Origin: a virus
Virus record (IMG/VR): IMGVR_UViG_3300047168_000266
Coordinates: 1-40,318 of that record
Strand: one strand, 5' to 3'
Length of the DNA: 40,318 nucleotides
In this document: positions 1 through 38,951 of the stretch, in pieces
Position numbering within the stretch: position 1 is the first letter of the stretch
Layout: each line of letters opens with the position of its first letter
Notes under the pieces: generated by a model
Told to the model about the DNA's origin: nothing
Database searches by the model: none
What the model saw: the letters and a program-made list of their open reading frames with translations, nothing else
Translations under genes and position numbers: made by a program

Positions 1-197
1 ATGGGCCTCGCTGGCAAACCGACCTGGCGCGCGATCTTCGGATATCCGATAGAACAATGCGCCGCTTTGTGGCCCGTGCAGATGATCTGCCGCCCGGTCT
101 ATATCTCGACATACTGCGCCTCACGCAAGAGCGCGTAATGGCCCTAAGTGCGTTGGCGGATCGTCTCAAGGACGCCGCAGCCCCAGGCGGGGTTTGA
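1..197 (+). CDS. Helix-turn-helix protein, C-terminal part (5' end outside window)
   Basis: Reading frame 3 is open from the window edge to TGA at 195-197 and gives 64 residues. The visible part has the pattern W-Q-T-D-L-A-R-D-L-R-I-S-D-R-T-M-R-R-F, a helix-turn-helix in which a short first helix leads into a recognition helix. It is followed by a P-P-G-L-Y turn and a helical Q-E-R tail. This arrangement is common in small phage and proteobacterial DNA-binding proteins. The start lies upstream of the window, so length and partner genes are unknown. A role in transcription or DNA binding is inferred from the fold only. An overlapping ATG frame at 1-138 is rejected because it shows no family pattern. 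Confidence 0.6.
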   Translation, partial: GPRWQTDLARDLRISDRTMRRFVARADDLPPGLYLDILRLTQERVMALSALADRLKDAAAPGGV

Positions 198-265
198 GGG
201 ATGGCCGGTCTGCCGCCGCTTGCCCCTGTGCGGGCGGTTAATCTTCGGGCGGGCGGTTGATGGAC

Positions 266-517
266 TCAGGGCTTTTGTAGTGTCTGCGGCGGGGCTGGCC
301 GAGAGTAGTTGGCTTCGCGGAGGACCACGCGGGGCTGATACATTTCAAGCCCGCTGCCGTAATCGGCTCCCGAAAGGCGGCGTTCAGTGATGCCATCTTC
401 AAATTCAACCTGAATGCCGATAGCGCGCAAGGCGATCTCAATTTCGCCGGCAATCGCGCTCTTGCCCGACGCCGTGTACCCGGAGACTGTGACGTAAACG
501 ATGTTATCCATACTCAT
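266..517 (-). CDS. Small P-loop (Walker A) phage protein
   Basis: Protein of 83 residues. The start at 517 is chosen over a longer frame because GGAG sits five bases upstream and ATGA overlaps the stop of the preceding gene. Residues 5-17 form a beta strand plus Walker A loop (V-S-G-Y-T-A-S-G-K-S), followed by a helix. The protein then ends after an acidic/arginine stretch, with no recognisable Walker B partner or lid, so it is far shorter than a normal NTPase or kinase. Similar mini P-loop proteins occur in phage early regions. Nucleotide binding is likely, but no reaction can be assigned. Confidence 0.6.
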   Translation of the reverse strand: MSMDNIVYVTVSGYTASGKSAIAGEIEIALRAIGIQVEFEDGITERRLSGADYGSGLEMYQPRVVLREANYSRPAPPQTLQKP

Positions 518-684
518 GCATGCTCCAAGACACCATCTACCGCCAGCAGGCATTCGCCAGCCAAGCCGGGCTTGCGCGTCTCAACGGTCCAATGCCCAAG
601 CGGCCATTTCACAGCGTAGCGGCGTTCTCCTCCAGCCTTGCGGCTTTCTGAAATTGCGAGAGAAACGGCTTCGGTTTTATCCAT
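514..684 (-). CDS. Hypothetical phage protein (56 aa)
   Basis: ATG at 684 is preceded by CGGAG eight bases upstream, and the gene ends at TGA 514-516, overlapping the next ATG by four bases. The 56-residue product is mixed charged with two tryptophans (K-W-P-L-G-H-W-T-V-E-T-R-K). It shows no signal peptide, membrane segment or cysteine motif. Translational coupling with the P-loop gene downstream and a repeated leader upstream support it as a real gene. Function unknown. Confidence 0.55.
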   Translation of the reverse strand: MDKTEAVSLAISESRKAGGERRYAVKWPLGHWTVETRKPGLAGECLLAVDGVLEHA

Positions 685-711
685 GTGCGGCTCTCCGGGG
701 GGTTAGGTGGA

Positions 712-954
712 CTAGGCAGCTTTTGTCGTAGCGGGATCGGTCAGCGGCTGTGTGGTCAAGTCGCCGGGCTCAATCGTGGAGTCCTCGTAGGACCAATGAG
801 AGCCGTACCACGTCGCCACGTACCATTGGGTTCCGTCGCAGGGGACGCGGCGGTCCAGCTTGACCAAATCGCCCATGCAATCGCGGAAGACCATGCCTTC
901 TTCCAGTTTATCTCGGTTGAGATACCAATAGTCTTCTGGAACTTCTGCGGTCAT
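712..954 (-). CDS. Hypothetical phage protein (80 aa)
   Basis: Eighty residues, acidic and rich in aromatic residues in the middle (W-Y-V-A-T-W-Y-G-S-H-W). No membrane segment or known motif is visible. Its ATG shares a base with the stop of the upstream gene (TAATG), so it belongs to the same minus-strand operon of small genes (1538 to 266). The stop is followed by a leader copy that is also present upstream of 1538. Function unknown. Confidence 0.55.
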   Translation of the reverse strand: MTAEVPEDYWYLNRDKLEEGMVFRDCMGDLVKLDRRVPCDGTQWYVATWYGSHWSYEDSTIEPGDLTTQPLTDPATTKAA

Positions 955-1289
955 TACTCATACTCGACCTCAAACATCTTTATTTCAGCTGCGCGACCGT
1001 GGCTTTTTAGGTCTAGAGCAAGCTTTTTAAGCAGCTTAAAATGCTCGGTTCTAGTCAGGCCGTCGCGAGCTGCTTGGCTTTTCGAAAAGGAAGCATCGTC
1101 TCTATAGGCGATTAGAGTGACTAACTCGCCTGGCTCAGAATTGAGTAACGCCATATCAAGCGGATTTCCAACCATTCGGCTCGATATCTGCCCTTTTTCC
1201 TCGATAAGCGCCCATCCAGCGCCGGCCAAGGTTTTCCCTGGCGCGGTGCCGGACAAATGAAGGCCAAGGCGCCTATGCCTAAGCTTCAT
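954..1289 (-). CDS. Hypothetical phage protein (111 aa)
   Basis: Protein of 111 residues with a basic N-terminus and a helical lysine-rich C-terminal half (F-K-L-L-K-K-L-A-L-D-L-K) ending in an acidic tail. The ATG at 1289 directly follows the TAA of the upstream gene, and the stop overlaps the next start, so it is translationally coupled. Codon use here is less GC-rich than in the structural genes, fitting an accessory region. No family is recognised. Confidence 0.5.
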   Translation of the reverse strand: MKLRHRRLGLHLSGTAPGKTLAGAGWALIEEKGQISSRMVGNPLDMALLNSEPGELVTLIAYRDDASFSKSQAARDGLTRTEHFKLLKKLALDLKSHGRAAEIKMFEVEYE

Positions 1290-1538
1290 TTAAACATCCG
1301 CTTTTGCAGGCTCGAAATCGCTGATCACGGAGTTCCAGCGACCTAAGCTGTTAAGCTGCGGCACTTCGTGCTGCCGGTAAGTTGCGCCATGATACGAATG
1401 ATAGGTGGCGTAGCCGATTTCAAGGCCGCTGCGATCGAACAGGGTTTCGTAGCCGTATTCGACATCGTTTTCTTTGTGGATGTCGTGGGCAATTAATTTG
1501 AGAGCTTCAAACTCGGATTTAGTGATTTCTTTGGTCAT
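1290..1538 (-). CDS. Hypothetical phage protein (82 aa)
   Basis: Eighty-two residues with a helical acidic/lysine N-terminus, then tyrosine- and histidine-rich strands (Y-A-T-Y-H-S-Y-H-G-A-T-Y-R-Q-H). The upstream leader contains CCCCCCGGAGA, giving a GGAG ribosome site about eight bases before the ATG at 1538. First longer gene of the minus-strand small-gene operon, divergent from the recombinase cassette. Function unknown. Confidence 0.55.
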   Translation of the reverse strand: MTKEITKSEFEALKLIAHDIHKENDVEYGYETLFDRSGLEIGYATYHSYHGATYRQHEVPQLNSLGRWNSVISDFEPAKADV

Positions 1539-1565
1539 TTTCGTATCTCCGGGGGGTTGTTGGAC

Positions 1566-1628
1566 TTAGGCGATGCCAGCGTTAAGATCGCGCCGGTTTA
1601 CGGCCAAAACGAAATTGGGGTTTTTCAT
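1566..1628 (-). CDS. Possible 20-residue leader ORF
   Basis: A short frame from ATG at 1628 to TAA at 1566-1568, with GGAG six bases before the ATG. The product begins M-K-N-P-N-F and ends N-A-G-I-A. It lies directly upstream of the 1538 gene in the same direction, separated by the repeated leader. It could be a leader peptide or a chance ORF; only the well-placed ribosome site supports it. Confidence 0.3.
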   Translation of the reverse strand: MKNPNFVLAVNRRDLNAGIA

Positions 1629-1745
1629 CGGCGGCTCCAAATCGGCGGGTTGATTTCGTAATCCATAAAACCTGTTTACGTTAGTCCGACAATCCTGTAA
1701 AGGAATAAAAACGTAATGTCGCAGAAAAAAGGTGTTTTATAGATC
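1629..1745. promoter_or_regulatory. Divergent intergenic region between small-gene operon and recombinase cassette
   Basis: The two operons are read away from each other, so promoters for both should lie here. A weak plus-strand candidate is TTTACG, 17 bases, then TAAAGG (about 1676-1704). The stretch is AT-richer than its surroundings and holds separated TTACG/CGTAA arms. Being next to a serine recombinase gene, it is also the natural place for a recombination site, but I cannot define one. Confidence 0.3.
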
Positions 1746-2375
1746 GTGAGAGAAGATAACCGCCCGCTGATCGGCTACGCTAGGATTTCTACGGGCGACC
1801 AGAAGCTAGATTTACAGATGGACGCGCTAGTCCGATACGGCGTGGACCGCGACCAAATTTACACGGACCAGATGAGCGGCAGCAATTTCGCCCGGCCCGG
1901 CCTGAAAGCGGCAATGAAGGCGCTCCGGGGCGGCGATACGCTTGTGCTTTGGAAGCTCGACCGGCTGGGCCGTAGCGTCATTGACGTGTTGGAGATGGTC
2001 AAGCGGCTGAATGACCGGGGCGTGCAGTTGGTAAGCCTCACGGAAAGCCTGGATGGCCGAACCGCAATCGGCAAGATGATGATTACCTTGCTGGCCGCGT
2101 TCGCGCAGATGGAGCGGGATTTGATTATAGAGCGCACAAAGGCGGGCCAAGCAGCCAGCAGAGAGCGCGGGATAGTGCCGGGGAGGCGCGACAAGATGAC
2201 GCCGGAGGTAGAGGCGCTTGCGCTGAAATTGCTGGCAGAAGTGCCGCCCATGGCCATGAACGACATAGCGCGGGAGCTTAAACCATACATCAGCCGCACC
2301 AAATTTTTTCAGTGGCTTGGCCAGTACCGAGACAAACAGAGCCTAGAAAAATTAGAGAGAAAGGAAATTTTATGA
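1746..2375 (+). CDS. Serine recombinase, resolvase/invertase family
   Basis: Protein of 209 residues with GTG start. The N-terminal catalytic domain (about 8-145) has Y-A-R-I-S-T with the nucleophile Ser15 and Arg13, the conserved W-K-L-D-R-L-G-R-S block (about 69-77), and the M-E-R-D-L-I-I-E-R segment (122-130) leading into the long E helix. A short C-terminal region (about 150-205) probably holds the DNA-binding helix-turn-helix. Size matches small DNA invertases/resolvases rather than large serine integrases. It cuts and rejoins DNA at paired sites; targets here are not known. It is the only site-specific recombinase in the window and starts a plus-strand operon. It may be the phage integrase substitute, a resolvase, or an invertase. 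Confidence 0.93.
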   Translation: MREDNRPLIGYARISTGDQKLDLQMDALVRYGVDRDQIYTDQMSGSNFARPGLKAAMKALRGGDTLVLWKLDRLGRSVIDVLEMVKRLNDRGVQLVSLTESLDGRTAIGKMMITLLAAFAQMERDLIIERTKAGQAASRERGIVPGRRDKMTPEVEALALKLLAEVPPMAMNDIARELKPYISRTKFFQWLGQYRDKQSLEKLERKEIL

Positions 2376-2725
2376 GCACTAGCTGCGTTGGCTGCAAATT
2401 CCTCTACGGAAACGGCAGCGGCTATTCAAATTATACGTGGCTGGAAACCTACGTGGTTTGCGCCCTCAAAAAAAATCCCGCGCTGCTGGAGGATTGCGAA
2501 GAGCCTTATGACTGGAACAAGGACGCGGACGCCGACAACTGGCCCCCGACCATGAATGGCCGGTGTGAGCGGTATGCGCCGGGCAAGTACATCGTCCTAG
2601 ACCCTGACCGGGAAGATCACCCGGCCGACAATTCGACCGATCAAGAACAGGTGGATGCGATCTGCGCCAGTGATGAGATGGAGAGACGCCCCGTCATTAT
2701 CGAAGGAAAGGCGTCTACCATATGA
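2372..2725 (+). CDS. Hypothetical cysteine-containing phage protein (117 aa)
   Basis: Start at 2372 is chosen because the ATG overlaps the recombinase stop (ATGA) and AAAGGAA lies just upstream; a longer frame from 2312 runs inside the recombinase. Residues 4-8 are S-C-V-G-C, with further cysteines near 33, 43 and 66, suggesting a small metal-binding fold. The C-terminus is acidic. Cotranscribed with the recombinase and the small gene that follows (ATGA overlap). No function can be named. Confidence 0.6.
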   Translation: MSTSCVGCKFLYGNGSGYSNYTWLETYVVCALKKNPALLEDCEEPYDWNKDADADNWPPTMNGRCERYAPGKYIVLDPDREDHPADNSTDQEQVDAICASDEMERRPVIIEGKASTI

Positions 2726-2907
2726 GCGAGTGGATAATCCTTTACCGTAAAAGCAACAACCGCATCGGCTTTATTTGCGAGGGAGGCGAAAGCGAGGACG
2801 ATTCAATCGGTATTTTTGACACCGAGGAGCACGCCAAGCGTTTTGTTGATGGCAACCGTTTTCTGGAAACGCGTCCTTGGCAGATTTTGGAAGTAACAGA
2901 GTTATGA
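2722..2907 (+). CDS. Hypothetical small phage protein (61 aa)
   Basis: Sixty-one residues, overlapping the previous gene by ATGA. The pattern is an N-terminal strand (W-I-I-L-Y-R), an acidic middle (E-S-E-D-D-S-I-G-I-F-D-T), a short helix with E-E-H-A-K-R-F and a final strand. This is a compact alpha/beta layout seen in many small phage proteins. No catalytic motif is visible. Part of the plus-strand cassette. Confidence 0.6.
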   Translation: MSEWIILYRKSNNRIGFICEGGESEDDSIGIFDTEEHAKRFVDGNRFLETRPWQILEVTEL

Positions 2908-2917
2908 GGTCAAGCAA

Positions 2918-3136
2918 ATGAGCCAGAAACTATTGCCTTGCCCATTTTGTGGAGGAGAGCCTGCATTACGAATAGCGAACAACGTACATTACTCTTTTGG
3001 TTGCCGCATTATGTGCGAGCCGTGCGGCGTGGATATTACGCATGAAGGGTCTGACCTCGATAGCGTTGGCATTAAGACGCGGTGCATTGCCGCATGGAAC
3101 AAACGCGCTCCGGCGCTACAGACACAAGGAGCATGA
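2918..3136 (+). CDS. Lar family restriction alleviation protein
   Basis: Seventy-two residues with the zinc-ribbon-like signature of the Lar family: L-P-C-P-F-C-G-G at the N-terminus, a second C-x-x-C pair (M-C-E-P-C-G), and the closing T-R-C-I-A-A-W-N-K-R block. Family members, named after the Rac prophage Lar protein, moderate type I restriction of incoming DNA, in known cases by boosting modification. A good ribosome site (GAGG, eight bases before ATG) supports the start. It sits in a plus-strand cassette with an RtcB ligase, which suggests an anti-defence role. Many Lar-domain phage proteins are untested, so the activity here is inferred. Confidence 0.8.
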   Translation: MSQKLLPCPFCGGEPALRIANNVHYSFGCRIMCEPCGVDITHEGSDLDSVGIKTRCIAAWNKRAPALQTQGA

Positions 3137-3137
3137 A

Positions 3138-3404
3138 ATGAGCGCCTGCAAGCATATGAATTTTTATGCGTCGGTAGGCGTAGCCCGATTAGAGGATACT
3201 GGCGGATTCATGGCTGAAATCCGCGTCCATTGTACCGAGTGCGGCAAGCCGTTTCAGTTCCTCGGACTCGAACCCGGCACCGACACAAGCGGCGCGCGGG
3301 TGAGCATCGACGGGCTTGAAGCAAACATCGCGATCTGTCCGCAGGGGGCGCGACCGAGCCCCTTGCAGAGCATGGCGTTCGGCATCACACGTTTTGACGG
3401 TTAG
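3138..3404 (+). CDS. Conserved phage protein with C-x-x-C motif (88 aa)
   Basis: Start at 3138 (ATG, one base after the Lar stop) is preferred to a longer frame from 2997 that runs through the Lar gene. The product has H-C-T-E-C-G-K-P-F-Q-F-L-G-L, a C-x-x-C zinc-type motif, then V-S-I-D-G-L-E-A-N-I and a final I-C-P-Q-G-A-R-P. I recognise this pattern as a widespread unnamed phage family, but no function is established to my knowledge. It may be a small zinc-binding accessory protein. Confidence 0.7.
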   Translation: MSACKHMNFYASVGVARLEDTGGFMAEIRVHCTECGKPFQFLGLEPGTDTSGARVSIDGLEANIAICPQGARPSPLQSMAFGITRFDG

Positions 3405-3412
3405 GACATAAG

Positions 3413-3634
3413 ATGAGCGATGTAGCCCGTCGCCACGCTCGACGCGCATGTGAAGCGCACAGCGATTTAAATATCTTTGCGGCGGTTGAAGCTATTCTTG
3501 ATGGCGGTACCCTCTACACCGAGGCCGGCCAAAAAACGGCGCAGCGCATTGCCGCTCTGTGTCGAAAAGAGCGAAACCGTCAGCTCGGGCAATACGATGC
3601 CTCCATGACAGCGATTTTGAAAGAGAAGGTTTAG
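3413..3634 (+). CDS. Hypothetical phage protein (73 aa)
   Basis: Seventy-three residues, helical and basic, with a central hydrophobic helix (I-F-A-A-V-E-A-I-L-D-G-G) and a basic C-terminal half containing A-A-L-C-R-K-E-R-N-R-Q. It lies eight bases after the previous gene and three before the RtcB gene, so it is in the same operon. No known domain is evident. Confidence 0.6.
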   Translation: MSDVARRHARRACEAHSDLNIFAAVEAILDGGTLYTEAGQKTAQRIAALCRKERNRQLGQYDASMTAILKEKV

Positions 3635-3637
3635 GTA

Positions 3638-5002
3638 ATGAGCCGTAGACCAGACCCGTTGGAAATCCGTTGCCGGGAGCTTTGCGCGGATATCGGTATC
3701 GATCCAGACAGCCGCATCGCGTTGCCGGGAAAGGAAAGAGGGATGCCGGCTTGGTGCGGATATCGTGACCAGGCGCGAGCCGAACAGAACGCTGCCGAAG
3801 CGAAGGCTCTGGCAGCGGAAATCGTCAACATGCGCCTGCAACCACCTGAGTTTCAAAACAGCCCGCTGCGTATCTTCGGGCAGCATGAGCAAGCCACCAT
3901 TGAACAGATGCGCAACTGCATGTCCATCGGTAACGCTGTAGCTGGTGTCATCTGCGCGGATGGGCATCTTGGCTACGCTCAGCCGGTCGGCGGCGTCATT
4001 GCTTATGAGAAGCAGATAAGCATTTCCGGTGTCGGCTTCGATATCGGGTGCGGCAATATGGCCGTTCGGCTCGATACGCCTTATTCCGATATCGCCGATC
4101 GTGTGCCGGAAATTCTGGCAGACGTGCGCCGTGTTATTTCCTTTGGCGTCGGACGCACCAATGATGAGCGCGCGGGCCATGAGCTTTTTGATGATGGCGA
4201 GGCGTGGCGCGAAAGCGATATGGAGGCTTACCGATCAAAGGCAGGCGCCCAGCTAGGCACTGTCGGCGGCGGCAATCACTACGTTGACCTGATGCGCGAT
4301 GAGAATGGCTTTGTCTGGATCGGCGTGCATTTTGGCAGCCGAGGTCTGGGACACACCAGCGCGACGCGGTATCTTAAGGCTGCCGGCGGCAAAGATGGCA
4401 TCAACGTTCCGCCGGCCGTGGTTGATGAGGATAGTGAGGTTGGGCGTCGGTACATCGCCGCGATGGAGTTAGCCGGTCGCTATTCCTACGCCGGCCGCGA
4501 ATGGGTCGTTGAGCGCGTGCGCCAGATCATCGGTGGTCATGTCATGGATATGGTTCACAACCACCACAACTATGCATGGCGGGAAAAGCACACCATCGCC
4601 GGCGCCGAGCGTGATCTGTGGGTGGTCAGGAAGGGCGCCACCCCAGCTTTCCCCGGACAACGCGGTTTTATCGGCGGTTCAATGGGCGACGACGCGGTGA
4701 TTGTTGAGGGTGTAGATAGCGAGGCATCAAAGGCTGCGCTGTACTCCACCGTCCACGGCGCCGGCCGGACGTTCGGACGCAAGCAGGCGAAGCGCACCTT
4801 TACCCGCGAACAGATGGACGCATGGCTACAAGAGCGCGGCGTTCTGGTTTCTGGCGGCGATGTGGACGAAAGCCCAATGGCGTATCGGCGCCTGCCGGAC
4901 GTGCTGGCCGAGCATGAGGGTACAATTAAGACGCTGCATACGCTGCGCCCCTTCGCCGTGGCGATGGCCGGCGATGGCGAATTCGACCCGTTCAAAGATT
5001 GA
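3638..5002 (+). CDS. rtcB: RtcB-family RNA ligase
   Basis: Protein of 454 residues. RtcB joins RNA 3'-phosphate (or 2',3'-cyclic phosphate) ends to 5'-OH ends using GTP and manganese. The metal and guanylylation signatures are present in order: F-D-I-G-C-G-N (134-140, Asp135 and Cys138), V-G-G-G-N-H-Y (209-215), H-F-G-S-R-G-L-G-H (231-239), V-H-N-H-H-N (307-311), R-K-G-A-T (331-335), and S-T-V-H-G-A-G-R with the guanylylated histidine at about 373. About 75 residues precede the core. All key residues look intact, so the enzyme should be active. Last gene of the plus-strand cassette, followed by a terminator. In a phage it could repair tRNAs cut by host anticodon nucleases; that role is inferred. 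Confidence 0.95.
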   Translation: MSRRPDPLEIRCRELCADIGIDPDSRIALPGKERGMPAWCGYRDQARAEQNAAEAKALAAEIVNMRLQPPEFQNSPLRIFGQHEQATIEQMRNCMSIGNAVAGVICADGHLGYAQPVGGVIAYEKQISISGVGFDIGCGNMAVRLDTPYSDIADRVPEILADVRRVISFGVGRTNDERAGHELFDDGEAWRESDMEAYRSKAGAQLGTVGGGNHYVDLMRDENGFVWIGVHFGSRGLGHTSATRYLKAAGGKDGINVPPAVVDEDSEVGRRYIAAMELAGRYSYAGREWVVERVRQIIGGHVMDMVHNHHNYAWREKHTIAGAERDLWVVRKGATPAFPGQRGFIGGSMGDDAVIVEGVDSEASKAALYSTVHGAGRTFGRKQAKRTFTREQMDAWLQERGVLVSGGDVDESPMAYRRLPDVLAEHEGTIKTLHTLRPFAVAMAGDGEFDPFKD

Positions 5003-5020
5003 GAGGAAGTACATATGGCG

Positions 5021-5051
5021 AGCCCCCCTGGATCGCTCGAGGGGGCTTTTT
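5021..5051 (+). terminator. Rho-independent terminator after rtcB
   Basis: Arms agccccc (5021-5027) and gggggct (5041-5047) pair perfectly around a 13-base loop and are followed by a run of T to 5051. It ends the plus-strand cassette 19 bases after the RtcB stop. The facing lysis operon ends at 5064. Confidence 0.85.
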
Positions 5052-5063
5052 GACGGGTGATCT

Positions 5064-5750
5064 TTACCATTTCGTCGGCGTCGACAAACTGATCAGCCCC
5101 CCCAACGTCCGCAGAATGAACGTCGAATAAGTGTTCCGTTCGCCCCGGCCCTCCATGCCTGGGCCATTCACCAGCCGGGTAATCCCGTCGATGTCCCACG
5201 CATCAGCCAGCGGCAGATACCCGTGCGAAACGAGCCACCAGCAGCCGGACATCGCCGCGCCGGCCGGCGTCTCGCAATACGCTGTCAGATCATCGAGCTC
5301 GACCCCGAGCGCAGCGCCCAGCGCCGTATAAGCATCGCGAAACGTGACATCGATGAGCCCGCGCCCACGGAACCGGTATCCATCCCCAGACGCAACATCC
5401 CCATTGCCACCCTTGCCGGCGTAGACCAGGTTGCCCAACGCGACAGGGTTGCCAACAAACGCCGCCGCCACCGTCGCGTTCGGGATCTCTTCGGGAAACA
5501 CGGCCACCAGGCGCGCCGCCGTGCTGTAATATAGATTCTCCACCGTCGCGCTGAAGGTGGGGCCCGCCTCGACCAGAAACTGCCCCACAGCCGCCGCCAC
5601 ACGCCGCGGGGTGTTGATTTCAAACCGCGCAAACGCCGCCGCCAGCGGCTGCCGCCACGGCGCAAAGTTCAGCCGCGGCGCGCACGTCCCGAGCGCCTTT
5701 TGCAAAGCGCCCAGGTCAACCGCCTGCGCTTGCATTAACGCATCTGTCAT
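5064..5750 (-). CDS. Endolysin, GH19 chitinase-like lysozyme
   Basis: Protein of 228 residues from ATG 5750, chosen because it overlaps the upstream stop (ATGA); a longer frame only adds the coding shadow of the upstream gene. The glycoside hydrolase family 19 pattern is clear: Q-F-L-V-E-A-G (candidate catalytic Glu about 61), V-E-N-L-Y-Y-S-T (about 70-77), then N-G-D-V-A-S-G-D-G-Y-R-F-R-G-R-G-L-I-D-V-T, and a late W-D-I-D-G-I-T-R-L-V-N-G block. Phage GH19 enzymes cleave the peptidoglycan glycan backbone at lysis. No signal peptide is seen, so it needs a holin to reach the wall. Last gene of the late minus-strand unit. Confidence 0.9.
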   Translation of the reverse strand: MTDALMQAQAVDLGALQKALGTCAPRLNFAPWRQPLAAAFARFEINTPRRVAAAVGQFLVEAGPTFSATVENLYYSTAARLVAVFPEEIPNATVAAAFVGNPVALGNLVYAGKGGNGDVASGDGYRFRGRGLIDVTFRDAYTALGAALGVELDDLTAYCETPAGAAMSGCWWLVSHGYLPLADAWDIDGITRLVNGPGMEGRGERNTYSTFILRTLGGLISLSTPTKW

Positions 5751-6049
5751 TTGAACAACCACCAATGTCCCTCGATCATTGCAATGAGAATTGAAAGTGC
5801 GATGCCCCCCACCGCGCCAAACGCGCCCCAAACCGCGACCCAGCTCGTGAGCATTTTTGTGATTTTCGCGAGAGTCTTATTCTGTTCTGTAAGCGTCATG
5901 GTGTGCGTGCTCAGAATTTCCTTATTGCCTTCCAGCGCGCGATCAATGCGCGTGAGCCCCATTTCCAGCGCGCCGATCCGGCCCTCGTGACCATCCAGGC
6001 GTCCTCTCAAATAGCCAACTTGTTCGCTCTGATTAGGCTCGCCCATCAT
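5747..6049 (-). CDS. XhlA-like coiled-coil membrane protein (lysis accessory)
   Basis: About 100 residues from ATG 6049, which has AGGAG nine bases upstream; the frame could also start at 6073 (ATGA overlap with the upstream gene). The N-terminal 65 residues are heptad-like and polar (E-G-R-I-G-A-L-E-M-G-L-T-R-I), followed by one membrane segment (about V-A-V-W-G-A-F-G-A-V-G-G-I-A-L-S-I-L-I). Coiled coil plus one C-terminal membrane helix is the layout of haemolysin XhlA-type proteins near phage endolysins. A holin/spanin-like lysis role is inferred from layout and position. Confidence 0.65.
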   Translation of the reverse strand: MMGEPNQSEQVGYLRGRLDGHEGRIGALEMGLTRIDRALEGNKEILSTHTMTLTEQNKTLAKITKMLTSWVAVWGAFGAVGGIALSILIAMIEGHWWLFK

Positions 6050-6069
6050 TAAATACTGCTCCTCTTGTC

Positions 6070-6849
6070 TCATGTCGCACCGAGCCCGAGCACACCTCCC
6101 AGCTCGACGATATGTTCGTCCAGCTGCGCCATCGTGAGCCCGCTTGGCGATATCGTATTGCCGCGTAGCCAAGTGCGGCGGAGAAGAGCAAAGCCCTCGT
6201 CCATGTATTTTTTCACCCAGCTAGCAGAGGCGCGCTGGTATCGGTCCCAGGTCGAAATGATGAACCAATCGGGCCCATCGAAATCGACGATGATAGTGTC
6301 ATGCCCTTCTTCACCAGGCTGGCTGAAATCCACCCAGGGCTTGCCAGCGCTGAATGTATCCTCGGCATTGGCCGGCAGCGCCAAGCCGGTCTCAGCACCG
6401 CCGAATGTCGCCACCACACGGCGCAGCGTATCCAGGTCACCCGGCTCAATCGGCGCAAAACCATCGAGCTTGTCGAATGCCGCACGCTGGTTGATGCACA
6501 GCCCCTGCGCCATCCACCGTTTGTTTTTGTCCAGCAGAACCGTGCCATTGTCATTGGCGCCGGTGGTTATGTTGTAGCCGGTATAATCGGCATAATCCTG
6601 CAGCGCCGAAGCCGTGTCCGGAATCATCGGCAGCCCAGCATTGCTGGTAATCACATCCACATAATGCAGGCTGGCGGCAAAAGCGCAGTTGCCAGCATGA
6701 TTATTTCCGAGCATGGGCACCGTCGGGCATGCCGCCCGCCAGTTGGTGGAAGCTGGCAAAGGCTGAAACACAGCCTTCGCCAGCAGACCATGCGCGGTTG
6801 GCAGCCGGGGGTCATAAACCGCCGGCCGCTTTCCTCTGCGCAGATACAT
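6070..6849 (-). CDS. Papain-like cysteine peptidase-related protein
   Basis: Protein of 259 residues. A cysteine block N-N-H-A-G-N-C-A-F-A-A-S-L-H (about 49-62) and a later G-H-D-T-I-I-V-D-F-D with a following S-T-W-D resemble the Cys, His and Asn/Trp regions of C1 papain-like folds, a pattern found in unnamed phage and bacterial proteins that sit near tail or lysis genes. No signal peptide is seen. It lies between a lipoprotein and the XhlA-like gene, all linked by one- or four-base overlaps. It could process a virion or cell-wall protein; activity is unproven and the match is from motif reading only. Confidence 0.5.
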   Translation of the reverse strand: MYLRRGKRPAVYDPRLPTAHGLLAKAVFQPLPASTNWRAACPTVPMLGNNHAGNCAFAASLHYVDVITSNAGLPMIPDTASALQDYADYTGYNITTGANDNGTVLLDKNKRWMAQGLCINQRAAFDKLDGFAPIEPGDLDTLRRVVATFGGAETGLALPANAEDTFSAGKPWVDFSQPGEEGHDTIIVDFDGPDWFIISTWDRYQRASASWVKKYMDEGFALLRRTWLRGNTISPSGLTMAQLDEHIVELGGVLGLGAT

Positions 6850-7448
6850 TACTGCAGCGGGATCGCGACCGGAGGCGCGCCCAGAATGGCCGAGGCCACG
6901 GATGGCGCCGCACTCGCCGGAACGGTCGCCGTCGGTAAGCCAGCCAGCAGCGCATCAAAAATGACCAGGCCAGCTTCGATCGCAACGCCCGTTGTCGCCG
7001 GCAACGGCAGCACCGCCACAACCCCATGCGCCGCGCCGTCAAACGCCTCCAGCGCGGCCGTGGTGCTTTCACCTGCCGTAAGCCCTTCGGTAGCCGTGGC
7101 CGCGGCATCGAGCGCGGTCACCGCCAACCGGGCCTTTGCCGCATTGGCGGCCGGCATGGACGCTTCAAGGCTTGGCGCCAAGGTATCGACCGCGCCATCA
7201 ATCGCACGCGCCTCGCTCTGCACCGCACCGAGCGATACATTGACAACCGCAGTGGTGCCGGTCGGCGAGCTGGAGCAGGCGGAGAGCACCGACAGGCAGA
7301 ATACCGCCATCAGCACGCCCGCGAGCCCGAACCGTTGGGCGCGCATCGGACGCGCGAAAAACACGGGCAAGCTGCCGGGTGGACACAACACCAGCGCGAG
7401 CATGGAACATACAGCGAAAACCAAGAACAAATTAAACATCAATCGCAT
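6849..7448 (-). CDS. Putative phage lipoprotein
   Basis: A lipoprotein signal is visible: hydrophobic stretch G-V-L-M-A-V-F-C-L-S-V then the lipobox L-S-A-C with the lipidated cysteine near residue 58. It is preceded by an extra hydrophobic N-terminal segment (F-N-L-F-L-V-F-A-V). The true start may be a later Met (residue 4, with AAGG nine bases upstream, or residue 35 for a classical signal). The rest is alanine/threonine-rich without motifs. Position in the lysis cluster hints at an outer-spanin-like or envelope function, but no partner inner spanin is recognised. Confidence 0.6.
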   Translation of the reverse strand: MRLMFNLFLVFAVCSMLALVLCPPGSLPVFFARPMRAQRFGLAGVLMAVFCLSVLSACSSSPTGTTAVVNVSLGAVQSEARAIDGAVDTLAPSLEASMPAANAAKARLAVTALDAAATATEGLTAGESTTAALEAFDGAAHGVVAVLPLPATTGVAIEAGLVIFDALLAGLPTATVPASAAPSVASAILGAPPVAIPLQ

Positions 7449-7465
7449 CCTTGTTTCGAATAATT

Positions 7466-7846
7466 TCAGGCGGCCGGCGCTGTCGTCACGGGCTTTTTCA
7501 CCGTGGCGGCAAATTTGGCGGAGATAAGACTCTGGATTTCCGCCGGGGTGATTCCGAGATACGAGATCGCGGCCGGCGCCAGCTTGGCGACCATGGCGGC
7601 GGCAGTGCTGAACGCGCCGACCGGAACGGTCACAGCCTCATTGTGCTGCGCAACCGAGGAGAGCGTATCCATCACGAGTGCCACGCCATGCTCGAGCGCC
7701 TGGTCGAGATCGTCGGCCGCTTGCGAGCCACCTTGCAGTTTCAGGCGAGCATGCAGCCACGACAAGCCAACGGGCACACCGGCCGCCACCGCGGCGCCGG
7801 CAAGCGAAAGCACGATCTGCCAGATGGCAGAAAGATTTATGATCAT
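7466..7846 (-). CDS. Putative holin
   Basis: Protein of 126 residues with one N-terminal membrane helix (about I-W-Q-I-V-L-S-L-A-G-A-A-V-A-A-G-V), then a basic amphipathic segment (H-A-R-L-K-L), a long helical middle and a lysine-containing C-terminus. The layout resembles single-helix phage holins such as the LL-H type (superfamily 6). First gene of the lysis cluster, downstream of tail fibre genes. The holin call is inferred from topology and position. Confidence 0.5.
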   Translation of the reverse strand: MIINLSAIWQIVLSLAGAAVAAGVPVGLSWLHARLKLQGGSQAADDLDQALEHGVALVMDTLSSVAQHNEAVTVPVGAFSTAAAMVAKLAPAAISYLGITPAEIQSLISAKFAATVKKPVTTAPAA

Positions 7847-7862
7847 TTTAATGTCCCTCTAA

Positions 7863-7964
7863 TGCCGGGAGCCGCCCGGCGCGGGTTCAACCGGCGATCC
7901 GCACCGGCGCAAACGCCGGCAACGTCGCCAGATGCCTATCGATCATGCGCGAAATGATTCGCGC
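7863..7964 (-). other. Cluster of three hairpins between tail-fibre and lysis genes
   Basis: The 125 bases between the genes at 7972 and 7846 hold at least three strong inverted repeats: gccggg/cccggc (about 7863-7879), ccggcg-caaa-cgccgg (7903-7918) and gcgcgaa-atga-ttcgcgc (7947-7964). None has a T run, so they are not plain intrinsic terminators. They would fold in the minus-strand transcript just ahead of the lysis genes. Confidence 0.55.
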
Positions 7965-7971
7965 GCTTGGT

Positions 7972-8184
7972 CTAGTCCCCCGTCGGCGTCGGCAGCACCC
8001 AGCTCGGGTCCCAGGGCACAGCGGTGGCATCCTCATATGCCGGCACCACGAACGATCCGTCCGCGAGCTCCTGCGGCACTGCCCAGGTGGTGGTCACGTC
8101 ACCTTCCGGCAGACGCATCAGCGCCGTCTGCGCATCGCAATAAGTCTGCGCATCGAGCAGCGTGGTAAATCGGCGATAATTCAT
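7972..8184 (-). CDS. Hypothetical phage protein (70 aa) after tail fibre
   Basis: Seventy residues, three bases after the tail-fibre stop. An N-terminal helix (F-T-T-L-L-D-A-Q-T-Y-C-D-A-Q) is followed by tryptophan- and proline-rich sequence (T-T-T-W-A-V-P, W-D-P-S-W-V-L-P). Small genes in this position often encode tail-fibre accessory proteins or chaperones, but nothing in the sequence proves that here. Confidence 0.55.
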   Translation of the reverse strand: MNYRRFTTLLDAQTYCDAQTALMRLPEGDVTTTWAVPQELADGSFVVPAYEDATAVPWDPSWVLPTPTGD

Positions 8185-8187
8185 TTT

Positions 8188-9900
8188 CTAAAGCCCCGTC
8201 ACTGAGAAATAATATTCCTGGTTATGTTCCAGCGTCTGGCGGTCGGCGGTTGATAGGGTGACCGGGAACACCATCGCCTCGCTGAGCTGGCCGTTGAGAT
8301 AGATCGGTCCATGCACAATGTCCGCGCCCAGAAGGACGGGAGCCGTCCCGCTGCCCAGCGTGCCAGAGATCGTGGTGGTCGCCGCGCTCCTGCCGTTCGA
8401 GTAGAGCAATATCTGGGTGCTGCTCACCGTAGCAGTGAGCACGTTCTCGTTGGGTGGAACCGTCTCGCTGGAATTATTGCCCTCCCCGGTACCTGAGGTG
8501 TTGTAGCTGAAGAGGTAGGCGTTGAGCTGGGTGCCGTTGGTGTAGCGCAGGGAGAACACACGGTTCGCGTCGTCCTGGGTGACCATGGCGTGCTGAGTTG
8601 CGATAGATGTGGCGTTTGCCACCGCGTTGACGCTGTAAAGCGCGCTCCCACCCACAGCCTGCACGCTACCAGCCGTCTGTAGAGACTGCGCCCCTGAGAA
8701 TAAGAGCGCGGGCCGCGAATTGAAGGTCTGCAATACGCCCGAGGCGACGATCTGCGGCTGCGCGGCGGCGGTGCTCTGCAAAGCGTTCCCAGCCGAGCCC
8801 AGAGTGCCCTGATTGTATATTTTCGTAACGAAGCCGTTCCCCGATCCTACAAAATTGAGCAGTGTCGCGGTGTCAAGCTGACCGCTCGCGAAACCAACAT
8901 CCATCGCCGTGTTGTCGGACGAGCGGCGCACATTGATGCATGCGCCATTGTAGGTTTTGGTGAGCTGACGCAGGCCGTAGGCAATCGTGGGCAAACCCGC
9001 AGAAAGTGCATCCAGGGGTTTTGAGAGGTAGAAATTGGCCTGATTCGTCTCAAGTGCAGTGCGGTCCTGCGTCGAAAGCGCGCTAGCAAATACCATAGTC
9101 TCGGAAATCGTGCCTGTGAAATAGTTTCCTGCCGCACCATCATAACCGATACGCAAAGTCACTGCATACCCAGCCATTGGTCCGGTAGAAGTTGTGGCGT
9201 CCGTTCGGCCGTTCGAGAAAAGCGCGAGCGTGGAGTTATTTTGAACCACTGTAATCAGGTTCTGCGGAGAACTAAGCGTCGTGCTAACAGTGTACGTGGT
9301 GTTGGACGGGTTCCAGGCAAGCGCATAGATACCCCCACCGGCCAGACTTCCGGTTCCTGTTGTCGCGTTCGACCGCAGCGAGAAAACCCGGCTACCCAGG
9401 GCTGACGATGGGTCGGCGCAGATGATCGGCGTCTCAGCGGAACTGGTGGAGTTGGCAACGGCGTTTACGGACCAGACGCCATTGGTGTTGACCGCCTGCG
9501 GCGTGCCGGATGAATAAAGGTCTACCGGCGAACCAGAAAACGAGACAGCCGGCTGCCCCTCGAACACGACAAGTGCTCCACTCGAAACTATCTGCGGCTG
9601 ATTTGCGGCTACGGTTTGAATCAAGTTTGCCGAGCTGCCCAGCGTGCCCTGATTATACCATGTCGCGACATAGCCACTGCCAGTCCCGACGAACGCCAAA
9701 AGCGTCGCCACATCCAAGCGATTATTGATGAACCCAATATCCATCGCCGTGTTGTCGCTGGACCGCCGCACATTGATCGCTTTACCCGTGTATGCCGCCG
9801 AGAGCCGCCGCAGCGAGTAGGCCACCGTCGGCTGGACCGACATCACATCTAGGATGCAGGACGTGCGCCCGAACCCCATCACAGCATCACCCACCATCAT
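8188..9900 (-). CDS. Tail protein with two tandem arabinofuranosidase-like/LamG modules
   Basis: Protein of 570 residues. Two similar halves (about 24-295 and 305-570) each begin with Y-(S/G)-L-R-(R/Q)-L, then I-N-V-R-R-S-S-D-N-T-A-M-D, then T-L-L-(A/N)-F-V-G, Y-N-Q-G-T-L-G-S, and end with an E-(T/A)-M-V-F strand. This matches the concanavalin-like fold related to arabinofuranosidase B catalytic domains that recurs in phage tail proteins. A carbohydrate-binding or receptor-binding role at the tail tip is likely. Catalytic activity is not shown. It lies downstream of the hub and another fibre gene. Confidence 0.8.
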   Translation of the reverse strand: MMVGDAVMGFGRTSCILDVMSVQPTVAYSLRRLSAAYTGKAINVRRSSDNTAMDIGFINNRLDVATLLAFVGTGSGYVATWYNQGTLGSSANLIQTVAANQPQIVSSGALVVFEGQPAVSFSGSPVDLYSSGTPQAVNTNGVWSVNAVANSTSSAETPIICADPSSALGSRVFSLRSNATTGTGSLAGGGIYALAWNPSNTTYTVSTTLSSPQNLITVVQNNSTLALFSNGRTDATTSTGPMAGYAVTLRIGYDGAAGNYFTGTISETMVFASALSTQDRTALETNQANFYLSKPLDALSAGLPTIAYGLRQLTKTYNGACINVRRSSDNTAMDVGFASGQLDTATLLNFVGSGNGFVTKIYNQGTLGSAGNALQSTAAAQPQIVASGVLQTFNSRPALLFSGAQSLQTAGSVQAVGGSALYSVNAVANATSIATQHAMVTQDDANRVFSLRYTNGTQLNAYLFSYNTSGTGEGNNSSETVPPNENVLTATVSSTQILLYSNGRSAATTTISGTLGSGTAPVLLGADIVHGPIYLNGQLSEAMVFPVTLSTADRQTLEHNQEYYFSVTGL

Positions 9901-9902
9901 GA

Positions 9903-11051
9903 TCAGGTGATCCCGGTGACGAGGGCCGCGACGAGACGGCCGGACGCCGTGATGTGGTAGGTCAGCAGATCCACAGCGCCCGCCGCGGTGCTAAGTGCCG
10001 GCGTGCCGCCCGAGCCGAATTTCCAACTCGATCCGAAGCTCGCCGTTCGACCGCCGGTGCTGTCCTGGGTGATCTCTATCGCACCGGAAGCGCCGGCTGG
10101 CAGCGTGGCCGGATTGGCAAAGGTCACGTTGCCGGTGAGCGTGATCGCGGCGTCATTACCCTGCGTAAAATCGATGGTGACCGTGCTCGCATAAACCAAC
10201 GGCTGAACAGTCGCGCACTGCGTTTTTGTATAGGTCTGATACGCATTCAGCGCCGCGCCGTTAGCAATATCCGTGATGGAAAGCACAACATTGCCTACCC
10301 GCCCCGCAACGCTCAGCACCTCGTTGCTGTTGCCGTCGATCTTATTCCAGGTATTCGTGATCCCATTGAAAACAGCTTTGTCGCCCACGTTCCACTGGCT
10401 GATGCCATCCAGCGTGGCGCTGCCTGCAACCGAAACATTATACACCACGCCTGCCGCGCCGGTGCCTGAGGCAAATGCCGGCGTATTCGTCGAGGCATTC
10501 CATGTCCCCCCGAACGTCAGCGCCTCAGCAAGCCCCAGGTTCGCCACCGCCCCCGCCGCCGTGCTCGCACCCGTCCCGCCCTGGCTGATCGGCACCGGTG
10601 CCGCAAACTGCGCAGCCCCGCCATCGCGCGCCAGCAGCAGATAGGCCCCCAGCGCCGCACGGTAGATCACGAGAATCGCCGCCGCCGCCTGCAGCGCGCC
10701 CGGCACCAGCGCCGCCCCAGCACCGCTCACCAGCGGCAGCGCCCCAGCCGAGTTATAATTAACGGTGCATGCAGTCGTGCTGGTCGCGGCAATTTTGATC
10801 GACAGGATCATGCCGTCCACCGGCGCCGTCGGCCCGATGTTGCTGGCCACCACAATCGTATTCGCAGAGCCCGTATCAACGACGTTGACCACCAGCTCAC
10901 TTTGCAGCGCATGCGGATGCCCGCCCGGCGTCACGCCATCATTGAGCACCAGCCGGTTGGTATCCGTCGTCGCCACCAGCTCGCCTTGTGCGCCGGTGAA
11001 CGCCGCCACCTGCGCCGCCGTGCCGCGGCGCAGTTGCACCTGATCTGCCAT
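9903..11051 (-). CDS. Tail fibre protein with Mtd-type N-terminal domain
   Basis: Protein of 382 residues. The N-terminus Q-L-R-R-G-T-A-A-Q-V-A-A-F followed by G-E-L-V-A-T-T-D-T-N-R-L-V-L-N-D-G is the anchoring repeat seen at the N-terminus of major-tropism-determinant-like and other phage fibres. A Q-G-G-T-G-A-S-T-A-A-G-A block (about 160) is also typical of fibres. The C-terminal half is beta-rich. It probably attaches to the hub encoded just upstream and contributes to adsorption. Confidence 0.8.
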   Translation of the reverse strand: MADQVQLRRGTAAQVAAFTGAQGELVATTDTNRLVLNDGVTPGGHPHALQSELVVNVVDTGSANTIVVASNIGPTAPVDGMILSIKIAATSTTACTVNYNSAGALPLVSGAGAALVPGALQAAAAILVIYRAALGAYLLLARDGGAAQFAAPVPISQGGTGASTAAGAVANLGLAEALTFGGTWNASTNTPAFASGTGAAGVVYNVSVAGSATLDGISQWNVGDKAVFNGITNTWNKIDGNSNEVLSVAGRVGNVVLSITDIANGAALNAYQTYTKTQCATVQPLVYASTVTIDFTQGNDAAITLTGNVTFANPATLPAGASGAIEITQDSTGGRTASFGSSWKFGSGGTPALSTAAGAVDLLTYHITASGRLVAALVTGIT

Positions 11052-11061
11052 TCTGAAATCC

Positions 11062-13188
11062 TTAGGCTACGCCGAGATCGACCGGCAGGTTGATCGGATC
11101 CGTCACGGACCCAAAAATATCGGCAAGCGTCACCACGCCGGTGACCTGACCGTAATCGAGCGACTGGCCGAGCTGCAGCGCATTGGCGATCGGCCCGAAC
11201 AGCCCCGCCCCCGTCGGCGAGTATGTGTAGGCCGTGCAATCGCTGAGGCTTTGCAACCCGCCGCCCTGGCCGTTAAAGCTGGCGAGCTTGATATAGATCG
11301 TCTGCCCGACATATTCGGTCGGCAGATCATAAACAAAAACCGCGCCATCCAGCCGCGCGAACGCCGCGCCCTGCGCGTGCGCGCCCGCCACCGTGCCATA
11401 TTGCCCGCGATACACCGTGGTGAGCGCATATTGCTCAGTGCCGGTGAGCGTGGCCGTGACGTACGAAATAATCTCGCCATCCACATAGCACATCGTATTC
11501 CCTGCGGCGGCCGAGGCGCTCGAGGACGCATTGACCAGCACGCCACCGGACATCGTGAGATCGACAGCGAGCGTCTCCCCGTCGGGCCCCACGCCGTTGT
11601 AGGCTGCCAGCGCGCTCATCAGCGCCCCTTGGCGCGCCGGCGCGGTGATGGACCCGACATATTCATAGGTCGCGTTATCGAGCGAGATATACACCTGCGC
11701 GCCACCCCAGAGCGGATCCGCCACCCCACCCACGCTGCCCGATGCCGCGACCCACACCTGCGCCTGGTTGCCGGTGAGCGCCGGCGGCGGCTCGAAGATG
11801 ACCGGCGGGTTTACCGGGTTGGCGGTGGCGAACAGCGTGTTGCCGCCGCTGCCGTTGCTCTGCTTGGTGTAGAGCGCCGCCGTGCCAACGCCCGCAGGCA
11901 GCTCCTCCACCGTGCAGGTGAGGATGCCATTGTCATCCTCCTCAATCTGCATAATCCGCACGGCGGTGTTGTTCATCCCCATGGCGGTATCGGTGAGCGT
12001 GACGATATCCATCGGGTCCAGCCCGCAATAGCGCGGGTCGAGCTTGATGATGTGCGTGTTGCGCACGTAAAGCTGGCGCTGCAGCACCAGCTGCGCGCAG
12101 ACCGCCGCCACATTCGGATCACAGATTTCCGTCGCCGCCACGCTGGTATCCACGCGCAGGCCGTATTGGTTCACCATCGCCTCGTCGCGTGCTTCGTATG
12201 GCGTGGCGTTGTAGGCGTTCGTGCGATCATTGATCGTCAGCCGCTCGACATTATATGCCTCGGACGGATCGGTGATCTGCCCCTGCACCGGATCAGCCGA
12301 GGAATCACCTTGAAAGTCGCCATCGCCCAAATTGAAAATTGGCGTCATGTTTGGCAGGTACGTAAAGCCATTGGCGGTAATCGGCTGGTCGCCGAACGGA
12401 ATGAATTGCAACACGCCGCCGCTATCCACCACGGCGCAATTGAGCAGCTTGATCCAGCGCTGGAGCACGCTCTGCGCCGTCTCGACATTAATCAGCAGCG
12501 GGCTGAACGCGATGCCCTGCGCCTTACAATAGGTCTGCAGCGAGGCATCGCCCGTTGTCGTCGCGGCGGCCGAGGAAAAGATGGTGGAAAGATTGACTGA
12601 CCCCGCCGGATACCGCCAGCCATATTGCTGGTTGAACAGCGCGTCATCGAGCACCAGCGCCGGATCTGCATCAACACCATTGATGCCGGTGCCCGCCAGC
12701 GGCGTGCTCACCTCATAATTATGATTCGGCAGGCTGGCCGAGCTGCCCAGCGAATAGGAGGCCGCACACACATAGGCCGTGCCCGGATAGGTGAGCGCCT
12801 GAGCAGGATATTTCGCAAACAGATAGTTCCAGCCTGCCTGCGGCGTATTGCCCACGAACAGGCTCAGCCCGAGCGACGAGAGGCCGTTATAGATCGTGCT
12901 ATCAACCCAGATCTGCCCGATCGACGATATCGGCCCCTCACACAGGCCCATGATGATGTCGGCCGAGTAGGTGTAGCTGGTGGAGCTGCCGCCGCCGAGT
13001 CCCTTGCCGCCGCCCTTTTGCTTCACCGCGTGCTGCTGGAAATTATTGTACCAGATCAGGTTCGGCGCGATGCGGAACCTGCCCCACCCCACCGGAATCG
13101 GCAGCGTGTTGATCGCCGTCTGGATCTGCACGCCCGTATAATTCGGCTTTGTGCCTGCGGATTTTGCACCGCCCGAAAGAAAGCTCAT
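11062..13188 (-). CDS. Tail tip hub protein (gpJ / RcGTA gp15-like)
   Basis: Protein of 708 residues. The early motif S-Y-T-Y-S-A-D-I-I-M-G-L-C-E-G-P-I (about 71-87) is the hallmark of phage tail hub proteins related to lambda J and the gene transfer agent hub. It follows in RcGTA order after the DUF2460 protein, the DUF2163 protein and the NlpC/P60 peptidase. It is shorter than RcGTA gp15. It forms the tail end that contacts the cell and carries the fibres encoded downstream. Confidence 0.88.
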   Translation of the reverse strand: MSFLSGGAKSAGTKPNYTGVQIQTAINTLPIPVGWGRFRIAPNLIWYNNFQQHAVKQKGGGKGLGGGSSTSYTYSADIIMGLCEGPISSIGQIWVDSTIYNGLSSLGLSLFVGNTPQAGWNYLFAKYPAQALTYPGTAYVCAASYSLGSSASLPNHNYEVSTPLAGTGINGVDADPALVLDDALFNQQYGWRYPAGSVNLSTIFSSAAATTTGDASLQTYCKAQGIAFSPLLINVETAQSVLQRWIKLLNCAVVDSGGVLQFIPFGDQPITANGFTYLPNMTPIFNLGDGDFQGDSSADPVQGQITDPSEAYNVERLTINDRTNAYNATPYEARDEAMVNQYGLRVDTSVAATEICDPNVAAVCAQLVLQRQLYVRNTHIIKLDPRYCGLDPMDIVTLTDTAMGMNNTAVRIMQIEEDDNGILTCTVEELPAGVGTAALYTKQSNGSGGNTLFATANPVNPPVIFEPPPALTGNQAQVWVAASGSVGGVADPLWGGAQVYISLDNATYEYVGSITAPARQGALMSALAAYNGVGPDGETLAVDLTMSGGVLVNASSSASAAAGNTMCYVDGEIISYVTATLTGTEQYALTTVYRGQYGTVAGAHAQGAAFARLDGAVFVYDLPTEYVGQTIYIKLASFNGQGGGLQSLSDCTAYTYSPTGAGLFGPIANALQLGQSLDYGQVTGVVTLADIFGSVTDPINLPVDLGVA

Positions 13189-13638
13189 CTACCGCTTGGC
13201 CCACACGGAGAACGAGCGCCGTTTTTTGTCCGCGAACGGGCTTTTGACGATATCCTCCATAAGCACCTCACCGGCCGGCGCGGAAGCGTGGATCACCACC
13301 GGCCAACTCACCACAATCGCGCCGTGCGAGAATGTCCGGCCGTGCAAGAAAACGACGATATCGCCGAACAGCGGCGTCTCCACCGGTGCCGCATATTGCT
13401 GCACAAACGCCAAATACCGCTCTTCGTCCCGGTGCATATACCAGTCATCGGTATAGCCCGCCCCGGCGCGCGGATCGAACGGCGGCACCACGCCAGCATC
13501 CACAAAAACTTTCGCGAGCAGCGTCCCGCAATCCGCGCCAGCGCCCTTCACCGCCGCCTGGTGGCGATACGGCGTGCCAATCCACGACATCGCCTCTTTG
13601 ATCACCAGAGCGCGCGCATCGATCTCCTGCGGCGTCAT
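13189..13638 (-). CDS. NlpC/P60 family tail peptidase (RcGTA gp14-like)
   Basis: Protein of 149 residues from ATG 13638, which has AGGAGG about eight bases upstream; a TTG three bases earlier is not needed. Motifs: G-T-P-Y-R-H-Q near the N-terminus, catalytic-type G-A-D-C-G-T-L-L (Cys about 37), and F-S-H-G-A-I-V-V with the histidine about 105. Such proteins cut peptidoglycan cross-links to let the tail through the cell wall during injection. Its stop abuts the hub ATG. Confidence 0.9.
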   Translation of the reverse strand: MTPQEIDARALVIKEAMSWIGTPYRHQAAVKGAGADCGTLLAKVFVDAGVVPPFDPRAGAGYTDDWYMHRDEERYLAFVQQYAAPVETPLFGDIVVFLHGRTFSHGAIVVSWPVVIHASAPAGEVLMEDIVKSPFADKKRRSFSVWAKR

Positions 13639-16863: not shown

Positions 16864-16865
16864 AG

Positions 16866-19418: not shown

Positions 19419-19455
19419 TATAATCTACTTTCGGGTCACAATGTGAGGAATGGTC

Positions 19456-19782
19456 ATGGGTTTTCGGTTTCGCAGAACCGTCCGTCTGCTGCCCGGCGTG
19501 AGGGTAAACCTCAGCAAATCGGGCGCGAGCCTGTCGGTGGGGCAGCGTGGCGCCACGGTGAATCTTGGGCAAAAAGGGGTTCATACGAACGTCGGTATTC
19601 CTGGCACCGGCATTTCCTACCGGTCCGGCAACCTCGCCCACGACCGCGAACGACCGCTCTCCGACCCGCCACCTTCGCAACCCAAAACGAAAATCAGCAT
19701 CATCCGTGTCATACTAATCGCATTTTTAGGTTTTACGGTGCTCATGGGCGTCATTAGTGCCCTGCAAAACGGCGCTCACTAG
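19456..19782 (+). CDS. DUF4236 family protein (moron in tail operon)
   Basis: Protein of 108 residues from ATG 19456, with GAGGA six bases upstream; an ATG six bases earlier is less well placed. The DUF4236 signature is complete: G-F-R-F-R-R, V-N-L-S-K-S-G-A-S-L-S-V-G, G-A-T-V-N-L-G, and V-G-I-P-G-T-G-I-S-Y, followed by a proline/basic linker and one membrane helix (about 85-105). The gene is read opposite to the tail operon, between tape measure and tail chaperone, and ends in a hairpin. That is the pattern of a moron, an independently expressed cargo gene. The function of the family is unknown. Confidence 0.85.
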   Translation: MGFRFRRTVRLLPGVRVNLSKSGASLSVGQRGATVNLGQKGVHTNVGIPGTGISYRSGNLAHDRERPLSDPPPSQPKTKISIIRVILIAFLGFTVLMGVISALQNGAH

Positions 19783-19790
19783 CGTCACGT

Positions 19791-19815
19791 GCGGGAACGC
19801 CGTTCCCGCAATTTT
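19791..19815 (+). terminator. Hairpin after DUF4236 gene
   Basis: Arms gcgggaacg (19791-19799) and cgttcccgc (19801-19809) are perfect, then aatttt follows. It can end the plus-strand moron and may also affect the minus-strand tail transcript. The same core palindrome recurs at 25225 and 31834. Confidence 0.65.
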
Positions 19816-19861
19816 AACATCAGGGCGGCGGAGATCTGCCGCTATTGCGGCTTCGCCTTCA

Positions 19862-38907: not shown

Positions 38908-38926
38908 TGCCTACCCCACAACAAAG

Positions 38927-38951
38927 GGGCGGCGGCACAATGCCGCCGCCC
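38927..38951 (-). other. Leader hairpin upstream of early operon
   Basis: Eleven-base perfect arms (gggcggcggca / tgccgccgccc) with loop caa. On the minus strand it is followed by CTTTGTTGT, a weak T-rich stretch, about 20 bases before the first early gene. Possible attenuator or mRNA 5' stabiliser. Confidence 0.55.

Follow-up and report, generated by a model that had tools for sequence, protein, structure and literature searches.

In the RtcB RNA ligase of P. horikoshii, the guanine base is contacted by F204, E206 and K480, and an alanine substitution at any one of these positions abolishes activity when Archease is absent (PMC3973293). A role for RtcB against tRNA cleavage was proposed for the cluster K mycobacteriophages in 2011 (PMC3203893) and has also been proposed for jumbo phages (PMC7824862). 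The RlaP and cREC families have been described as partners of RNA ligases in conflict systems (PMC7824862). The E. coli Rac protein RalR has been reported as a toxin with DNase activity (PMC4147584).

In this study, we analysed the whole IMG/VR virus record IMGVR_UViG_3300047168_000266, a stretch of 40,318 bases that is referred to here as the window. A first-pass annotation had described a plus-strand cassette at 2918–5002, containing a Lar-family gene, an rtcB gene and small genes of no known function, as a possible anti-defence module. The operon turns out to be nothing unusual among phage accessory operons; it was rightly spotted but over-read as a module. Phage RtcB genes are common; the copy in the window comes from a little-studied branch that deserves biochemistry.

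Organization of the operon

The minus strand of the window encodes terminase, portal, capsid, tape-measure and tail proteins, a DnaB-type helicase and a CII-like regulator. The virus is probably a dsDNA tailed phage of Alphaproteobacteria, the host being assigned from the rtcB relatives only. No integrase was identified among the scanned larger genes, and a DNA-level search of positions 1–20000 against the phage collection returned no match. A 321-aa gene without a family match lies on the minus strand at 38904–39869, and its copy in the sibling phage described below is 40% identical.

Seven open reading frames follow one another on the plus strand at 1746–5002 with overlaps or gaps of 1–10 bases, in the order serine recombinase, 2372, 2722, Lar-type gene, 3138, 3413 and rtcB. 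The ATG of 2372 overlaps the stop codon of the recombinase gene, and the ATG of 2722 overlaps that of 2372. These start/stop overlaps and the tight spacing make a single transcript likely. The cassette at 2918–5002 is thus tight and on one strand, as had been noted, but the real unit is longer and begins at 1746. No sigma-70-like promoter was found on the plus strand upstream of the operon.

The serine recombinase recognized ahead of the Lar and RtcB genes is borne out. It is the first gene of the operon (1746–2375, plus strand) and encodes a small protein of the resolvase/invertase type (209 aa) with a resolvase catalytic domain (PF00239, E = 6e-43; phrog_125 DNA invertase, 2.7e-60). Its relatives occur in 639 phage records, every one at less than 60% identity, and a scan of 1500–5200 for inverted crossover sites gave no convincing pair. 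At the other end of the operon, a terminator-like GC-rich hairpin followed by TTTTT (5021–5051, plus strand) lies between rtcB and the convergent endolysin gene (5064–5831). The hairpin folds no better than shuffled sequences (z = 0.23) and is absent from the list produced by a consensus terminator scan, so a closing terminator at this position is plausible only.

Active site of RtcB

The last gene of the operon (3638–5002, plus strand) encodes an RtcB-family RNA ligase of 454 aa (PF01139, E = 2.5e-65, 221.8 bits against a cut-off of 27; phrog_1075, 8.5e-73). Searched with the AlphaFold2 model of the protein (mean pLDDT 88), the PDB gave RtcB structures as the only significant matches (TM 0.61–0.71). 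Equivalents of D65, D95, C98, N202, H203, H234, H329, H404 and R408 are retained, comprising the metal- and phosphate-binding residues and the nucleophilic, GMP-accepting histidine. The catalytic motifs had been called intact, which is correct for the metal ligands and this histidine but not for the guanine pocket, where E206 is replaced by D217 and K480 by M443. The window protein thus lacks both of these guanine contacts of canonical GTP-dependent RtcB. The replacements run through the whole branch, with D at position 206 in 160 of 160 relatives and M at position 480 in all 159 that could be scored, whereas E206 and K480 are both present in all 17 canonical RtcBs from Alphaproteobacteria. 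The position of F204 is mostly tyrosine in the branch, a change that is not distinctive because five of the 17 canonical sequences also carry tyrosine. The branch possesses, in addition, a C-terminal extension with a conserved DPxKD end.

Because E206 and K480, whose alanine mutants are inactive in P. horikoshii, are replaced, GTP activity of the window RtcB should not be assumed. A tentative hypothesis, which on the sequences compared we rate as rather less probable than its denial, is that the nucleotide cofactor has changed in this branch. In a fuller and equally tentative version, the branch would have rebuilt its pocket (D in place of E206, M in place of K480, and the added DPxKD tail) and might work without Archease, either through a different or relaxed cofactor (e.g. 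ATP) or through a tail lysine that replaces K480, and phages would spread a stand-alone RNA-repair gene.

Distribution of the RtcB branch

RtcB was found in 569 of 50,697 phage records. Among cultured phages, the altered-pocket signature is carried by Microcystis phage Mwe-JY26, Sinorhizobium phage AP-16-3 and Tunturi_5; the RtcBs of phages Arash and SirPhilip have the canonical pocket. Phage and bacterial copies are interleaved in the tree, with at least 14 label changes, which points to repeated exchange of RtcB between phages and bacteria. The window protein clusters, with weak support, with other viral copies and with copies of the Rhodospirillales/Acetobacteraceae type. In three Bradyrhizobium genomes the altered-branch RtcB is the sole RtcB. 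The chromosomal RtcB in the Bradyrhizobium genomes that were examined shares 76% identity with the window protein, and its gene is surrounded by ordinary chromosomal genes (clustering around bacterial rtcB is noisy, with long spurious frames in GC-rich DNA, and only the general chromosomal setting was used).

Archease (PF01951) was found neither in the window, which thus lacks the companion gene of an Archease-assisted RtcB, nor in the three Bradyrhizobium genomes with the altered-branch RtcB. An Archease gene adjoins a long canonical rtcB in records G067, G070 and G107. The absence of Archease alone is not special, since short E. coli-type RtcBs are also without it.

Some RtcB relatives have long frames. 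One of them (L057:5576–7963) carries an intein-like insertion at the position of the catalytic Cys98 in a frame of 795 aa, and the frames of two others are comparably long, at 775 aa (L031) and 889 aa (L033).

The Lar-type gene and the small genes

The Lar-type gene (2918–3136, plus strand) encodes a 72-aa protein with a CxxC...CxxC arrangement. Its assignment to the Lar family holds for Pfam, where PF14354 is matched above the cut-off (E = 3.5e-12, 46.8 bits against 28.6), but not for NCBIfam, where the score for TIGR03655 stays below it (37.1 bits against 39.6). The closest phage matches are 38–40% identical, and a viral scan with the gene as query found no relatives.

The four small genes of no known function, all on the plus strand, are unequally supported. 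Gene 2372 (2372–2725, 117 aa) belongs to no known family; five relatives with 47–58% identity support the start at 2372, a further match of 31 residues lies at a contig end, and the gene is also present in Agrobacterium phage Atu_ph07. Its invariant cysteines C5, C8, C30 and C65 suggest a zinc site. Gene 3138 (3138–3404, 88 aa) has nine viral relatives with 49–95% identity and an invariant CxH...CxxC, and is a widespread single-gene phage cassette. Gene 3413 (3413–3634, 73 aa) has a single partial match, of 30 residues at a contig end. ORF 2722 (2722–2907, 61 aa) is the weakest gene call, resting on its position and on a start that overlaps the preceding stop; it has no relatives in the viral scan, and its match to DUF7336 is below the cut-off.

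Gene 3138 has also moved by itself. Window positions 3132–3417 and L168:4950–5235 share 97.6% DNA identity over 286 bp, a stretch that takes in only the gene with a handful of adjoining bases. The L168 copy sits between tail genes, and the rest of that locus is dissimilar to the window. This is a recent transfer of one gene into a tail region between otherwise unrelated phages. In two other phages, DUF5131 genes lie just upstream of a 3138 homologue (L172:4686–5798 and L173:4951–5949).

Conserved Cys/His sets are present in each of 2372, the Lar-type gene and 3138 (window 2372–3404), which may be three neighbouring Cys/His proteins of the zinc-ribbon type.

Gene neighbourhoods

A sibling phage, record G044, encodes a large tail protein 97% identical to that of the window, with 92.6% DNA identity over 8 kb, and lacks rtcB, Lar and any DNA of the cassette. 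A variable stretch (G044:28760–37339, L183) occupies the place of the cassette and contains genes for a ParB-like protein and for a tyrosine integrase, followed by a GH108 lysozyme gene. The records of both phages may be incomplete, so this absence is strong and not absolute.

A neighbourhood check on the small genes had been proposed with the first-pass annotation, and its outcome was negative. In a translated search of 80 viral contigs that carry a relative of the window rtcB, neither the small cassette genes nor Lar lay beside rtcB, and clustering of the neighbours at 80 viral rtcB loci gave no conserved neighbour. Among 43 other viral records, three matched the Lar profile above the cut-off; a pair of these, with the match at identical coordinates, is probably one virus. 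In the two distinct records Lar lies 1.5 kb and 9.2 kb from rtcB, which is no enrichment (P = 0.18). A Pfam scan of 150 near and 150 far rtcB neighbours showed only integrase (three), RlaP (two), YdaS (two) and HNH (two) as recurrent. A PADLOC scan of the cassette, with a library of defence and not anti-defence genes, gave nothing above noise. Lar, RtcB and the small genes therefore do not recur together. The absence of conserved partners, the lone transfer of 3138 and the sibling without the cassette indicate a mosaic of separately acquired genes. We conclude that the phage carries, in a variable region, a moron-like accessory operon of mosaic make-up and no conserved module. Its Lar-type gene and the remaining small genes came in separately and do not necessarily have a function in common with RtcB.

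One neighbourhood does resemble the idea of the first-pass annotation: at L016:4104–6993, a DNA methylase gene, a Lar-like frame, what appears to be a second adenine methyltransferase gene and a YAcAr SLOG gene precede rtcB.

Genes for RNA repair were found near rtcB in other viruses. RlaP or cREC occurs in seven other viral records of the RtcB branch and lies within 3.1 kb of rtcB in five of them (1.3 kb in G034, adjacent in G202, 1.1 kb in G026, 3.1 kb in G009 and 0.7 kb in G032), against about 0.7 records expected under uniform placement (P about 1e-4, for a count that was not pre-planned and comprises seven records). This proximity is new support for a repair role of RtcB. The window has neither gene. 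Searches of the window for tRNA genes and Rfam families were empty; protection of phage-encoded tRNAs by RtcB, a further role considered, is unsupported here, the window being without tRNA.

Discussion

The locus is best explained, in our judgement with fair probability, as a mosaic accessory operon of an alphaproteobacterial tailed phage in which RtcB joins RNA ends left by host RNases and the small genes were acquired separately. Host RNases, such as anticodon nucleases and toxins, would cut RNA during infection; RtcB would join the 2′,3′-cyclic phosphate or 3′-phosphate ends to 5′-hydroxyl ends, and the mended RNA would let translation continue. We infer that the window RtcB is active, that tRNA is its substrate and that host defence is the reason for its presence. 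The proposal that RtcB counters tRNA cleavage is thus plausible, is found in the literature (PMC3203893; PMC7824862) and agrees with the RlaP and cREC genes nearby in other viruses; what fails is the part assigned to RtcB in a module with Lar and the small genes. Several observations count against RNA repair by the window RtcB: the window has no RlaP, cREC, Archease or phage tRNA, deletion of the host rtcB in P. aeruginosa leaves the plating of PAK_P3 unchanged (PMC4933390), and Bradyrhizobium genomes already hold one RtcB of the same branch, so the phage copy may be redundant.

For the Lar-type protein, the chances are only slightly below even that it is a small zinc-ribbon nucleic-acid-binding or RalR-type DNase-like protein and no anti-restriction factor. 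RalR is the product of the former lar gene of E. coli Rac. As RalR is a reported DNase toxin (PMC4147584), the name Lar hints only weakly at anti-restriction, and the TIGR03655 cut-off that was not reached and the conserved Cys/His sets in the neighbours 2372 and 3138 argue in the same direction. The Pfam cut-off that was exceeded argues against it, and sequence alone does not reveal function.

It is unlikely that rtcB is instead a host gene of RNA metabolism that was captured and has no particular part in anti-defence, serving, for example, the benefit of a lysogen or general RNA turnover. Such an origin would agree with the close similarity to the sole Bradyrhizobium RtcB in its ordinary chromosomal setting and with the position of the cassette beside opposite-strand lysis genes, as is typical of morons, but the enrichment of RlaP and cREC around the rtcB of other phages speaks for repair in conflict. 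A dedicated anti-defence module, with Lar acting against type I restriction, RtcB against anticodon nucleases and the small genes as further factors, is quite improbable: the operon is tight, the Lar-like gene of G013/L016 lies 1.5 kb upstream of rtcB with DNA methylase and YAcAr SLOG genes nearby, and a DNA methylase gene lies a short way downstream of the L174 relative of 3138, but the small genes are beside none of the 80 viral rtcB relatives, Lar is in just two distinct other records and near rtcB in one, 3138 was transferred singly, PADLOC gave no above-noise match from its defence library and the sibling phage is without the set.

With RNA repair in a mosaic operon as the preferred reading, the significance of the locus lies in its RtcB. 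A branch with a uniformly altered pocket, which is the sole RtcB of the examined Bradyrhizobium genomes and has been repeatedly exchanged with phages, offers a handle on the nucleotide used and a direct way to ask whether phages carry RtcB to undo RNA-cleaving defence. That the module did not hold up is a warning not to equate adjacency of phage accessory genes with shared function.

Comparison with known systems

Like members of the Lar/RalR family (PF14354, TIGR03655), the Lar-type protein of the window has Cys pairs and a closing AWN motif; it differs in falling under the TIGR cut-off. The repair of PrrC-cut tRNA by T4 Pnkp and Rnl1 has the same proposed purpose as the window RtcB, but these enzymes are unrelated to RtcB and their end chemistry is different. 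Several viruses of this rtcB branch resemble the described RtcB/RlaP/cREC conflict-system neighbourhoods (PMC7824862) in having RlaP or cREC nearby, whereas the window is without either gene. The RtcB-like ligases of cultured phages (phrog_1075; mycobacteriophage cluster K, Proteus and Cronobacter phages) are likewise phage-borne and have the same proposed role (PMC3203893); the two examples checked, Arash and SirPhilip, differ from the window RtcB in keeping the canonical pocket. Finally, the canonical RtcBs (P. horikoshii PH1602, E. coli RtcB and human RTCB; PF01139) share with the window protein, at approximately 25–34% identity, the fold as well as the residues that bind metal and phosphate or accept GMP, and the window protein is set apart from them by the changes of E206 to D and K480 to M, the DPxKD C-terminal extension and an N-terminal extension.
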